Source of the DNA: Bacteroidales bacterium
GTDB taxonomy: Bacteria; Bacteroidota; Bacteroidia; Bacteroidales; JAHJDW01
Assembly (NCBI GenBank): GCA_029004185.1
Contig: JAQUPB010000014.1
Coordinates: forward strand, 1 to 33,019
Direction: 5' to 3'
Length of the DNA stretch: 33,019 nt
Under the pieces are notes generated by a model. It was not told the origin of the DNA, did no database searches, and saw only the letters and a list, made by a program, of their open reading frames with translations. Positions 2,310 to 18,095 of the stretch are shown here, piece after piece (within the stretch, counting starts at the first letter, position 1; each line of letters opens with the position of its first letter). Both the position numbers and the translations under genes were made by a program.

Positions 2310-2406
2310 TCTTTGCGAACTTTGCATTTTGGTCTTAGCGTTCTTTGCGAGAAAAAAAATAAAAGTTTCACGCAAAGTACGCAAAGATATCGCCAAGAAC
2401 GCGAAG
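2310..2406. repeat. CGCAAAG-family inverted repeat element, no gene inside
   Basis: Left arm 2310-2350 is built of CTTTGCG units (CTTTGCGAACTTTGC...TTCTTTGCGAG). Right arm 2368-2406 carries the complementary ACGCAAAG units (CACGCAAAGTACGCAAAG). The arms are imperfect inverted copies with only 17 bases between them. The same units bracket the GxxExxY gene at 13757-14222, so this looks like a gene-less relative. It occupies most of the gap between gap and the next gene. Confidence 0.65.
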
Positions 2407-7399: not shown

Positions 7400-7440
7400 C
7401 ACGCAAAGCACGCAAAGATTATAACGCAAAGTACGCAAAA
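7400..7440. repeat. CGCAAAG-family half element
   Basis: Four direct units of ACGCAAAG-type sequence (ACGCAAAGCACGCAAAG, then AACGCAAAGTACGCAAAA) lie 28 bases upstream of the pheT start. No opposite CTTTGCG arm is visible nearby, so this is a single arm of the family that appears in both orientations at 2310-2406 and 13757-14222. Confidence 0.65.
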
Positions 7441-12816: not shown

Positions 12817-13737
12817 ATGACAAAAGTATTAATAGCAACAGAAAAACCATTTGCAGCAGCTGCTGTTGATGGCATTAAAAAAATATTTGCAGAAGCAGGT
12901 TTTGAAACCGTTCTTCTGGAGAAATACACCGACCCCAATGACCTGATTAAAGCGGTTGCCGATGTTGATGCAATGATTATCAGAAGTGACAAAGCAACAC
13001 GACAGGTTATCGAAGCAGGAAAAAATCTAAAAATAATTGTTCGTGCAGGTGCGGGATTTGATAATATTGACCTTGCTGCAGCTACCGAAAAGGGAATCGT
13101 GGCAATGAACACTCCCGGACAAAATTCAAATGCAGTTGCCGAACTGGCACTCGGAATGATGGCTTTCATGGCAAGAGCAAATTATAAAGGCGGCTCAGGA
13201 ACCGAATTGAAAGGCAAGAAACTCGGCCTGCAGGCATACGGTTATGTCGGTAAAGCAGTTGCAACAATTGCAAAAGGATTCGGCATGGATGTTTATGCTT
13301 TCGACCCTTTTATCCCGAAAGAAGCAATTACCAAAGACGGCGTAAAAGTTGTGAATTCCGTTGAAGAGCTTTACAGCACTTGTCAGTACGTTTCTTTGCA
13401 TATTCCTGCAAATGATAAAACAAAGAAATCAATAAATTATGCACTTCTTTCAAAAATGCCAAAGAATGCAACTGTTATCAATACTGCAAGAAAAGAAATT
13501 ATTAATGAAGATGATTTAAAAAAGATGTTTACCGAACGACAGGATTTCAAATATGTTTCCGATGTGGCTCCGGAATGTCATGCCGACTTATTACAGTTTG
13601 AAAACCGTTATTATTCAACTCCGAAAAAACAGGGAGCAGAAACATCAGAAGCAAATGTTAACGCAGGTCTTGCTGCCGCAAACCAGATTGTGAAATTCAT
13701 AAAGAACGGCGACAAAACTTTTCAAGTAAATAAATAA
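12817..13737 (+). CDS. serA: D-3-phosphoglycerate dehydrogenase, short lysine-type
   Basis: 306 residues, lacking the ACT and intervening regulatory domains of long SerA. It catalyses NAD-dependent oxidation of 3-phosphoglycerate, the first step of serine synthesis. The substrate-binding segment RAGAGFDNIDL and NTPGQNSNAVAEL are present. The nucleotide-binding turn is LQAYGYVGKAVA (residues 138-149), the form usual for Bacteroidota enzymes. Catalytic Arg225 (NTARKE) and Glu253 (DVAPE) are visible. The usual catalytic His in TPHxG is replaced by Lys270 (YYSTPKKQG), as in the lysine-type enzymes described for Entamoeba. Without an ACT domain, direct serine feedback inhibition is unlikely. It follows serC and precedes the GxxExxY cassette. 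Confidence 0.95.
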   Translation: MTKVLIATEKPFAAAAVDGIKKIFAEAGFETVLLEKYTDPNDLIKAVADVDAMIIRSDKATRQVIEAGKNLKIIVRAGAGFDNIDLAAATEKGIVAMNTPGQNSNAVAELALGMMAFMARANYKGGSGTELKGKKLGLQAYGYVGKAVATIAKGFGMDVYAFDPFIPKEAITKDGVKVVNSVEELYSTCQYVSLHIPANDKTKKSINYALLSKMPKNATVINTARKEIINEDDLKKMFTERQDFKYVSDVAPECHADLLQFENRYYSTPKKQGAETSEANVNAGLAAANQIVKFIKNGDKTFQVNK

Positions 13738-13756: not shown

Positions 13757-14222
13757 CTTTGCGTCCTTTGCGTAATACATTGCGAACTTTGCGGTTAAAA
13801 TGACTGAAAACGAAATAGCAAATAAAATAATAGGTGTTGCTTTAGAAGTTCATAAATCACTTGGTCCAGGTTTACTTGAAAGTGCATACAAAGAGTGTTT
13901 GGCATTCAAATTAAATCAAATCGGATTAAGTATTGAGAAAGAAAAACCAATGCCTCTTGTTTTTGAAGATGTAAGATTAGAATGTGGGTACAGAATAGAT
14001 ATTTTAGTTGAAAACAAAGTAGTAATTGAAATAAAAAGTGTTGATGGCCTTAATGATGTTCATTTAGCTCAAACTTTAACTTATATGAAATTAGGAAACT
14101 ATAAGTTAGGTTTATTAATAAACTTTAATGTGTCACTATTAAAAAATGGAATAAAAAGAGTAGTTAATAATCTTTAATTAGTAAACCGCAAAGCACGCAA
14201 AGAAAGCGCAAAGTTCGCAAAA
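13757..14222. mobile_element. Putative mobile cassette: GxxExxY gene bracketed by CGCAAAG terminal inverted repeats
   Basis: The left arm at 13757-13794 (CTTTGCGTCCTTTGCG ... TGCGAACTTTGCGG) ends 5 bases before the ATG. The right arm at 14185-14222 (ACCGCAAAGCACGCAAAG ... GCGCAAAGTTCGCAAA) begins 7 bases after the stop. Reverse-complemented, the right arm matches the left over about 38 bases with one gap. The gene is thus tightly framed by inverted repeats of the same family that occur without a gene elsewhere in the window. It sits inside the otherwise coherent serC-serA-DUF1015 cluster. Mobility is inferred; no target-site duplication is clear. Confidence 0.55.
13800..14177 (+). CDS. GxxExxY family protein (PD-(D/E)XK-like)
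   Basis: 125 residues, the usual size. The family motif is seen in LGPGLLESAYKECLAF (residues 21-36), preceded by IIGVALEVHK. A nuclease-like core follows: GYRIDILVENKVVIEIKSV (residues 61-79) has an Asp and an E-x-K arranged as in the PD-(D/E)XK fold, and LAQTLTYMKLGNYKLGLLINF completes it. The biological role of GxxExxY proteins is not established. The gene is flanked within 5-7 bases on each side by inverted CGCAAAG-type repeats and interrupts the serA-DUF1015 pair. Family: secure. Nuclease activity: inferred from the residue pattern only. Confidence 0.92.
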   Translation: MTENEIANKIIGVALEVHKSLGPGLLESAYKECLAFKLNQIGLSIEKEKPMPLVFEDVRLECGYRIDILVENKVVIEIKSVDGLNDVHLAQTLTYMKLGNYKLGLLINFNVSLLKNGIKRVVNNL

Positions 14223-14255: not shown

Positions 14256-15503
14256 ATGGCAATATTAAAACCATTCAAAGCGCTTCGTCCGCCGAAAGAA
14301 ATCGTAAAGGAAATTGCAGCACGCCCTTATGATGTGCTGAGTTCGAACGAAGCAAGAGCTGAAGTGAAAGGAAATAAATATTCACTTCTTCACATTACTA
14401 AACCAGAAGTTGACCTTGGCGATAATGTTGATGAACACGAACCGCAGGTTTATGAAAGAGCAAGGGTGAATTTCGACATGTTCCGCAAAAACGGATGGCT
14501 CGTTCCCGACGAAAAAGAATGTCTTTACATTTATGCGCAAACAATGGATGGCAGAACGCAGTACGGAATTGTAGGCTGTGCAGGTGTTACCGATTATATG
14601 AATAACATAATAAAAAAGCACGAGCTGACAAGAAAGGATAAAGAAGAAGACCGCATGAAACATATTCGCGTGAATAATGCAAACATTGAACCTGTTTTCT
14701 TTACTTATCCTGCCGTTAAAGAAGTTGACGAAGTTGTTGCCGGCGTTGTTAAAAACCAGAAACCGGAATATGATTTTGTTGCTGATGAGGGATTCGGACA
14801 CAAGTTATGGGTTATAAAAGATGACAAAATCATAAACAAACTTGTTGAGTTGTTTGCAAAAATTCCTTCCCTCTACGTTGCCGACGGTCATCATCGCACA
14901 GCAGGTGCAGCATTAATCGGAAATGAAAAAAAACTAAAAAATCCTAACCATACCGGAAAAGAAGAATATAATTTTTTCCTTGCCGTTATATTTCCCGGAA
15001 ATCAGCTTCACATTATAGATTACAACCGTGTGATGAAAGATTTAAACGGATTGTCAAAAGCTGAGCTTCTTGAAAAACTCAATAAATCTTTTGACGTTCA
15101 GGAAAAAGGAACTGAAATTTATAAGCCCAATAAAATTCATAACTTCAGCATGTACATTGACGGCAAATGGTATTCGTTGACTGCAAAACCCGGAACATTT
15201 AATGATAATGACCCCATTGGCGGACTTGATGTTACGATATTATCAAAGCTTGTTCTCGACGAAATTTTCGGAGTTAAAGATTTAAGAACCGATAAAAGAA
15301 TTGATTTTGTTGGCGGAATAAGAGGCCTGGGTGAACTCAAAAAACGTGTTGACAGCGGCGAAGTAAAAGTTGCCTTTGCACTTTTCCCGGTTCCCATTCA
15401 GCAACTATTCAATATTGCCGACACAGGAAACATAATGCCACCGAAAACAACATGGTTCGAACCGAAACTAAGAAGCGGACTCTTTGTGCATTTGTTGGAT
15501 TAA
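14256..15503 (+). CDS. DUF1015 family protein
   Basis: 415 residues. Family-typical stretches include the start ILKPFKALRPP, IAARPYDVLSSNEA, YSLLHITKPEVDL, and the central LYVADGHHRTAGAA with an adjacent His pair followed by Arg. The C-terminal SGLFVHLLD is usual. DUF1015 genes are repeatedly found beside serC/serA in Bacteroidota and other phyla, so a role in serine or phosphoglycerate metabolism has been suspected, but no reaction is established to my knowledge. Here it is the last gene of that cluster, 78 bases after the GxxExxY stop, and a palindromic terminator-like element follows 23 bases after its own stop. Confidence 0.93.
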   Translation: MAILKPFKALRPPKEIVKEIAARPYDVLSSNEARAEVKGNKYSLLHITKPEVDLGDNVDEHEPQVYERARVNFDMFRKNGWLVPDEKECLYIYAQTMDGRTQYGIVGCAGVTDYMNNIIKKHELTRKDKEEDRMKHIRVNNANIEPVFFTYPAVKEVDEVVAGVVKNQKPEYDFVADEGFGHKLWVIKDDKIINKLVELFAKIPSLYVADGHHRTAGAALIGNEKKLKNPNHTGKEEYNFFLAVIFPGNQLHIIDYNRVMKDLNGLSKAELLEKLNKSFDVQEKGTEIYKPNKIHNFSMYIDGKWYSLTAKPGTFNDNDPIGGLDVTILSKLVLDEIFGVKDLRTDKRIDFVGGIRGLGELKKRVDSGEVKVAFALFPVPIQQLFNIADTGNIMPPKTTWFEPKLRSGLFVHLLD

Positions 15504-18020: not shown

Positions 18021-18095
18021 TTCTTAGTGTTTCTTTGTGTCTTAGTGTCTTGGTGGCATTTATTTTTTTACCGCAAAGACGCAGAGACGCAAAGA
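18021..18095. repeat. CGCAAAG-family inverted element, diverged copy
   Basis: Left arm 18021-18057 (TTCTTAGTGTTTCTTTGTGT ... CTTGGTGGC) and right arm 18070-18095 (ACCGCAAAGACGCAGAGA ... CGCAAAG) are imperfect inverted copies separated by an AT-rich dozen bases. It resembles the repeats around the GxxExxY gene but holds no gene. It lies between the sigma operon and the DUF2807 operon, about 50 bases upstream of the second ECF-type promoter. Confidence 0.65.

Follow-up and report, generated by a model that had tools for sequence, protein, structure and literature searches.

A GxxExxY gene between inverted arrays of seven-base units at the serA–DUF1015 site of a Bacteroidales genome, and covariation suggesting that the protein recognises its flanking repeats

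The closest described systems are REP/RAYT (the REPtron) and the TIRYT 'TIRtron', in which a nuclease/transposase gene lies between inverted repeats, further copies of these repeats occur across the genome without the gene, and the enzyme recognises the repeats (PMC3733652). The GxxExxY element analysed here resembles the REPtron in that the inverted repeats around its gene also occur dispersed without a gene. It differs in the enzyme, which is of the PD-(D/E)XK type by prediction, whereas the REPtron enzyme is a HUH tyrosine transposase (IS200/IS605 type). It also differs in the repeats, as neither arm of our element carries a GTAG tag, and GxxExxY arms consist of arrayed 7-bp units whose specificity varies. 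S23 genes are known from the intervening sequences of 23S rRNA (PMC4990558). Here the likeness is a small open reading frame inside inverted arms, in sense, in a transcribed region, and S23 relatives occur at the serA–DUF1015 site; however, the GxxExxY element does not lie in rRNA and has an unrelated fold, other unit words and a base–residue code. In the sections available of the work on the Rpn/YhgA-like proteins (PF04754), these are likewise PD-(D/E)XK nucleases of patchy distribution with many paralogs and a link to recombination, RpnA is reported to have little sequence specificity, and flanking repeat arrays are not mentioned (PMC5350276). The two groups belong to different Pfam families.

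MITEs and insertion sequences share with our element the terminal inverted repeats, and gene-less copies with ends like those of gene-bearing ones, but the GxxExxY element has no transposase of a known family, and its arms are made of tandem units. A few homing endonucleases have the PD-(D/E)XK fold. They are similar as small nucleases whose gene spreads by cutting the allele that lacks it; for GxxExxY the target would instead be a family of repeats and not a single conserved site in a gene. In the open-access literature, GxxExxY is named in two papers, once in each, and PF13366 in one, and no account of a link to flanking repeats was found. The element is best placed with systems that combine an enzyme with cognate dispersed inverted repeats, and there is a fair chance that it would merit a separate class if mobility were proven.

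The window is the whole stretch of DNA that was analysed, 33,019 nucleotides of contig JAQUPB010000014.1 (assembly GCA_029004185.1); its features are collected in Table 1. An earlier note, made from the letters alone, had described a GxxExxY gene between CGCAAAG inverted repeats that separates serA from DUF1015. Sequence and profile matches confirmed the gene and its repeats, and the neighbours were identified as expected. The scores for TIGR04256 (143.2 bits, cut-off 35) and PF13366 (138.5 bits, cut-off 22) were above the curated cut-offs. On the forward strand, the upstream arm reads CTTTGCG at 13757, 13766, and 13787 and CATTGCG at 13778, and the downstream arm reads CGCAAAG at 14187, 14196, and 14207 and CGCAAAA at 14216. 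The unit spacings are 9/12/9 and 9/11/9, respectively, and the match of the arms over about 38 bases requires a one-base offset in the middle spacer. The end of the upstream arm that faces the gene is GGTT/AACC. The inner 17-nt block of the arms has two counterparts, with a complementarity of 94% and 88%, and the arms were paired in the predicted RNA fold of the whole arm–gene–arm unit (z −3.1). No Rfam hit was found in the window.

Table 1. Positions of the element, its host genes and the further repeat copies in the window.
Feature	Position	Strand	Remarks
SerA-like D-2-hydroxyacid dehydrogenase, host gene upstream	12817-13737	+	profile searches
Upstream inverted arm	13757-13796	-	four CGCNAAG-like units: 13757-13763, 13766-13772, 13778-13784, 13787-13793
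GxxExxY gene	13800-14177	+	125 aa; TIGR04256 E 4e-42, PF13366 1.6e-40 (profile searches)
Codon of residue 7, Ala in window	13818-13820	+	tracks unit base p5 (A in window) across the family
Codon of residue 122, Val in window	14163-14165	+	tracks unit base p2 (G in window) across the family
Downstream inverted arm	14185-14222	+	four CGCAAAG-like units: 14187-14193, 14196-14202, 14207-14213, 14216-14222
DUF1015, host gene downstream	14256-15503	+	profile search; serA–DUF1015 adjacency ancestral in the order
Gene-less hairpin, same unit family as window arms	2310-2406		8 units in two arms
Single arm, same unit family (CACGCAAAGCACGCAAAG..CGCAAAGTACGCAAA), without partner arm	7400-7440	+	
Gene-less hairpin, related variant, 8-nt period (CGCAAAGACGCAGAGACGCAAAG)	18032-18095		

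The GxxExxY protein is a predicted PD-(D/E)XK nuclease. Its sequence and structure model follow the pattern E ... D-x(n)-E-x-K on an alpha-beta core, and the active-site set E27, D67, E77, and K79 was invariant in 109 relatives. The predicted structure had a pLDDT of 94.9 and matched Cas4 SSO0001 with a Z-value of 10.4 (99 residues, 3.2 Å), followed by BpuSI (8.5) and archaeal Hjc (7.4). Z-values below about 8 are common, and therefore only the Cas4-like PD-(D/E)XK core is firm. Likeness of fold does not make the protein a Cas4, and Cas4 proper was rejected, as PADLOC gave only a weak hit (E 0.026). A sequence search of the PDB returned no relative of the GxxExxY protein. Profile searches with the window protein gave no match other than PF13366/TIGR04256, and none to PF04754, DDE, HUH or site-specific recombinase families.

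For the comparison across the family, GxxExxY loci were gathered by protein similarity or HMM only, with the flanks not considered; the sample consists mostly of draft or metagenome-assembled genomes. The inverted-flank score is that of the best local alignment between the 120 bp before the gene and the reverse-complemented 120 bp after it. A score of at least 30 was reached by 46.9% of 113 GxxExxY genes compared with 0.6% of 165 other ORFs at the same loci (Fisher 6e-24), and by 4.9% of mismatched flank pairs. Sixty further genes were taken from the HMM list as a replication, and 45.8% of 59 scored at least 30. Units, counted as at least two C[AG]CN[AG]AG words in one orientation within 100 bp, were found beside 87 of 115 GxxExxY genes and in 61% of flank windows versus 1.8% of background windows. 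This pattern was learned from the same data, with the proteins not used in defining it, and about a quarter of the GxxExxY genes had no unit that matched it. The arms were inverted at 38 genes and direct at 4, and the units lay about 5–50 bp from the start codon. The highest-ranking words in an unbiased count of 7-mers in the clade near the window included CGCTAAG, CACTAAG, CGCAGAG, and GTGGTTA/GCGGTTA. The same arm design was observed in archaea (Methanophagales), Planctomycetota, Brocadia, Treponema, Chlorobi, Gemmatimonadota, and Alphaproteobacteria, and on replicons of Gemmatirosa, Sphingomonas, Bernardetia, and Bacteroides. The earlier note had asked whether CGCAAAG-type repeats flank GxxExxY genes more often than chance; repeats do so by a wide margin in many phyla, and its counter-case, that GxxExxY genes elsewhere lack such flanks, was decided in favour of its reading.

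Among 170 proteins, the arms were of type A (CRCNRAG) in 103, of type B (CRCNGAT) in 25, and of another kind in 42. On the maximum-likelihood tree of these proteins, which was built from 126 columns and is poorly resolved with many unresolved forks, the A/B label required 2 changes, against a mean of 23 and a minimum of 19 for shuffled labels. Seven genomes carried both type A and type B elements, and host base composition was therefore rejected as the cause of arm type. Each arm resembled its own partner more than the partners of other elements of the same type.

The adjacency of serA and DUF1015 is old in the order. In more than 20 relatives, the gap between them was either empty or small, from 11 to about 210 bp. 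In two (G021 and G076), it contained an S23 gene flanked by separate inverted arrays, and in another (G034) a gene-less CACNNAG hairpin. Among the relatives compared, GxxExxY stood between the two genes only in the window genome, and on this comparison of gene order it is a derived insertion. Vertical descent at this site was rejected because of the empty or short gaps in more than 20 relatives and the S23-type genes in others. The empty sites that the earlier note had called for were thus present in many relatives, and its counter-case, a gene always present through vertical descent, was decided in favour of its reading. No filled and empty sites among these relatives were close enough for the junction to be aligned, and a plasmid search returned 8 records, all predicted non-mobilizable, with no filled/empty pair. 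At four further loci (L288, L290, L289, L284), the serA–DUF1015 site carried long periodic arrays without a gene, built from very different words (TTGTCAGTTGTCAG, TTGAGTCTTGAGTC). The presence of different arrays at this site in several genomes indicates that it attracts or tolerates them. A conserved S23-like paralog (FFRFEDLRIYHK..., with a polar tail) without inverted arms was also seen there (L146, L152, L158, L159, L161, L164, L167, L168); several related families carry it in their serine operon, and it looks vertically kept.

Comparison of the gene neighbourhoods showed a strong sense bias. Out of 91 GxxExxY genes, 80 were in sense and 3 in antisense between two co-directional neighbours (p 2e-20); the median gaps were 83 and 75 bp. 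On a Sphingomonas replicon (L247:449-914), we observed a GxxExxY gene between fabD and fabG with a CACGCGAAGGCGCGAGGACGCGAAG arm upstream. Recent copies within a genome (L056/L327, 92% DNA identity; L291/L308, 82%) had the gene in common but not the arms, and in one pair from two genomes (L125/L140), arm, gene, and arm were common and nothing beyond. These few cases are only suggestive that the gene may move with or without its own arms.

The type A unit can be written C-p2-C-p4-p5-A-G. The two arms of one element agreed at p2 with a frequency of 0.88 compared with 0.50 between elements, and at p5 with 0.87 compared with 0.51, and 0 of 2000 permutations were as high in either case. At p4, agreement was 0.61 for own arms and 0.57 between elements. 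As p4 is unmatched, base pairing or fresh inverted duplication is disfavoured as the sole cause of the likeness of the arms. From these comparisons, the arms resemble recurring binding sites whose address is specific to the element. Two positions of the address followed two residues of the protein: p2 tracked residue 122, with Val accompanying G and Ile accompanying A, and p5 tracked residue 7, with Thr accompanying G and Ser or Ala accompanying A. Columns 122 and 7 stood out in mutual information with a z of 25 each, and only columns 124–125 and 8 came near them. In 16 path-independent tree pairs, Ile122 went with A by 14.0:0 and Thr7 with G by 12.3:0, while the best score of any column for 150 simulated traits on the same tree was 8.3 and 9.0, respectively. 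This test used all branches and was backed by the simulation; the starred-branch version gave just 2–3 pairs and had little power.

Both codons lie near the ends of the gene, and the association was therefore examined with the far arm only. The p2 base of the upstream arm, about 370 bp away, predicted residue 122, with Ile in 0 of 28 proteins with G and 30 of 43 with A. The p5 base of the downstream arm predicted residue 7, with Thr in 23 of 29 with G and 1 of 57 with A. Crossed arm–residue combinations were weak. As the far arm alone predicts the residue, local DNA linkage was rejected as the source of the code. A held-out set of 37 type B and related elements had Thr7 in 16 of 23 with p5=G and in 0 of 9 with p5=A (p 8e-4). 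For Ile122 the support was weak: it was found in 8 of 21 elements with p2=A, compared with 0 of 8 where p2=G (p 0.066). The window element fits the code, with Val122, Ala7, and CGCNAAG arms. The GxxExxY protein thus very probably recognises its own flanking repeats, and the covariation suggests that the gene and its flanks form one previously undescribed genetic element. The earlier note had proposed that the product might act on its terminal repeats, and the covariation of arms and protein backs the recognition part of this proposal.

The repeat family is not confined to the gene. Gene-less copies had been listed at 2310-2406 and 18021-18095; the former was confirmed, and the latter is a true hairpin with a narrower span (Table 1) and a variant 8-nt period. 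The lone arm was absent from that list. Matches to CGCAAAGnnCGCAAAG with up to 3 mismatches numbered 10 in the window compared with 3.05 expected (0 of 100 shuffles as high), and matches with up to 1 mismatch numbered 102 genome-wide compared with 2 for the reversed pattern. The shuffles, the reversed-pattern counts, and the comparison ORFs rule out that the arms arose by chance or low complexity. Most of the CGCAAAGnnCGCAAAG-like sites in the genome are hairpins of about 95 bp without a gene, in which two arms enclose a loop of 10–20 nt, and the same genome had five PF13366 matches. Repeat number was higher in genomes with a GxxExxY gene (p 3e-5). Two genomes (G067 and G028) had dozens of such hairpins and no PF13366 gene. 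The relation between the dispersed copies and the code of the resident protein showed only a trend (rho 0.33, p 0.15; rho 0.26, p 0.28). Hence, of the claim that the gene-less copies are non-autonomous, their abundance stood, and their dependence on a resident protein was a non-significant trend. In G067, we also observed about 48 CRCARAG double sites (L206-L225), many of them in near-identical 105-bp hairpins whose flanks are conserved for at least 45 bp on each side, which makes them part of a longer, recently spread repeat. In the window genome (G000:C82, C172, and C175; L026, L032, and L033), the perfect palindromes CCCGATAGCTATCGGG and CCTGCCTGCCGGCAGGCAGG were seen inside units of gene-less hairpins and resemble nested insertions of a second repeat family.

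We consider it quite probable that arm, gene, and arm form a compact element whose product would be a sequence-specific PD-(D/E)XK nuclease binding the units of both arms. GxxExxY would bind the 7-bp units C-p2-C-p4-p5-A-G, with residue 122 setting p2 and residue 7 setting p5. The units would be bound as duplex DNA, since both arms carry the word, which in a single strand of RNA would appear in just one of them. The element would insert in sense between operon genes and the gene would be expressed by read-through. Cutting may take place at or beside the arms, and spread may occur by repair of the cut, as for a homing enzyme, possibly into existing gene-less hairpins; this route is proposed because two recent gene copies have unrelated arms. 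The gene-less hairpins may be target sites, remnants or non-autonomous copies.

The code demands recognition and not mobility, and the arms could accordingly be operators through which the nuclease represses its own gene, or marks of self DNA in a defence or toxin-like system, with the gene moving by ordinary horizontal transfer. The short distance of the units from the start codon, the patchy distribution, and the several paralogs per genome would suit such a role. We nevertheless regard it as unlikely: both arms share one address and one of them follows the stop codon, hairpins without a gene are found in tens of copies away from any such gene, the sense bias is strong, the operon insertions have no partner gene, and no defence model matched beyond the weak Cas4 hit (E 0.026). 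The 80:3 sense orientation, together with the predicted arm pairing (z −3.1), could also indicate an element that works at the RNA level, comparable to the 23S rRNA intervening sequence, in which the arms pair in the operon mRNA and RNase III or GxxExxY processes the stem, so that the insertion is harmless. S23/IVP genes with inverted unit arrays at the same serA–DUF1015 site in G021 and G076 fit this explanation as well. Pairing would, however, favour a match of own arms at p4, which is lacking, and the base–residue code is found in both arms, which present different strands in RNA. Type A or B units were found in 0 of 60 flanks of S23 genes from the same order, whose inverted arrays use other words, and an RNA-level origin is quite improbable. 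The same 0 of 60 bears on mere hitch-hiking, in which GxxExxY genes would land by accident beside hairpins that are common in these genomes. The abundance of hairpins in G067 and G028, which have no GxxExxY gene, agrees with this, but arm type follows the protein tree even inside one genome and the base–residue code ties protein to repeat. Hitch-hiking is contradicted by the present data and is hardly credible.

Recognition of its own repeats by the GxxExxY protein may extend further than the window genome. We tentatively propose, at somewhat less than an even chance, a cross-domain class of mobile elements in which a stand-alone PD-(D/E)XK nuclease would home into palindromic short-word arrays and use its own array as ends. 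Its specificity would evolve via residues 122 (base 2) and 7 (base 5), a readable protein–DNA code, and the class would explain a large share of the dispersed hairpins in environmental bacteria. GxxExxY is widely annotated but has no assigned function; if the protein does recognise its own repeats, a large unassigned nuclease family gains a substrate and widespread dispersed hairpins gain a likely cause. The code predicts the outcomes of a simple binding test, and a small nuclease that changes its word specificity through known residues would be of interest for studies of sequence-specific enzymes.

The S23/IVP arrays form a sister system that uses separate words. Outside rRNA, four-helix-bundle genes of the S23/IVP kind (PF05635; L176-L205, e.g., L181, L189, and L201, and also L257 and L274) carried inverted arrays of 7–10 nt units. 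The words differed by locus (GAGTAGATGAGTAGTC, AGCCAGTAGCC, GTTTAACGT), and the inverted-flank score was at least 30 in 34% of 29 such genes.
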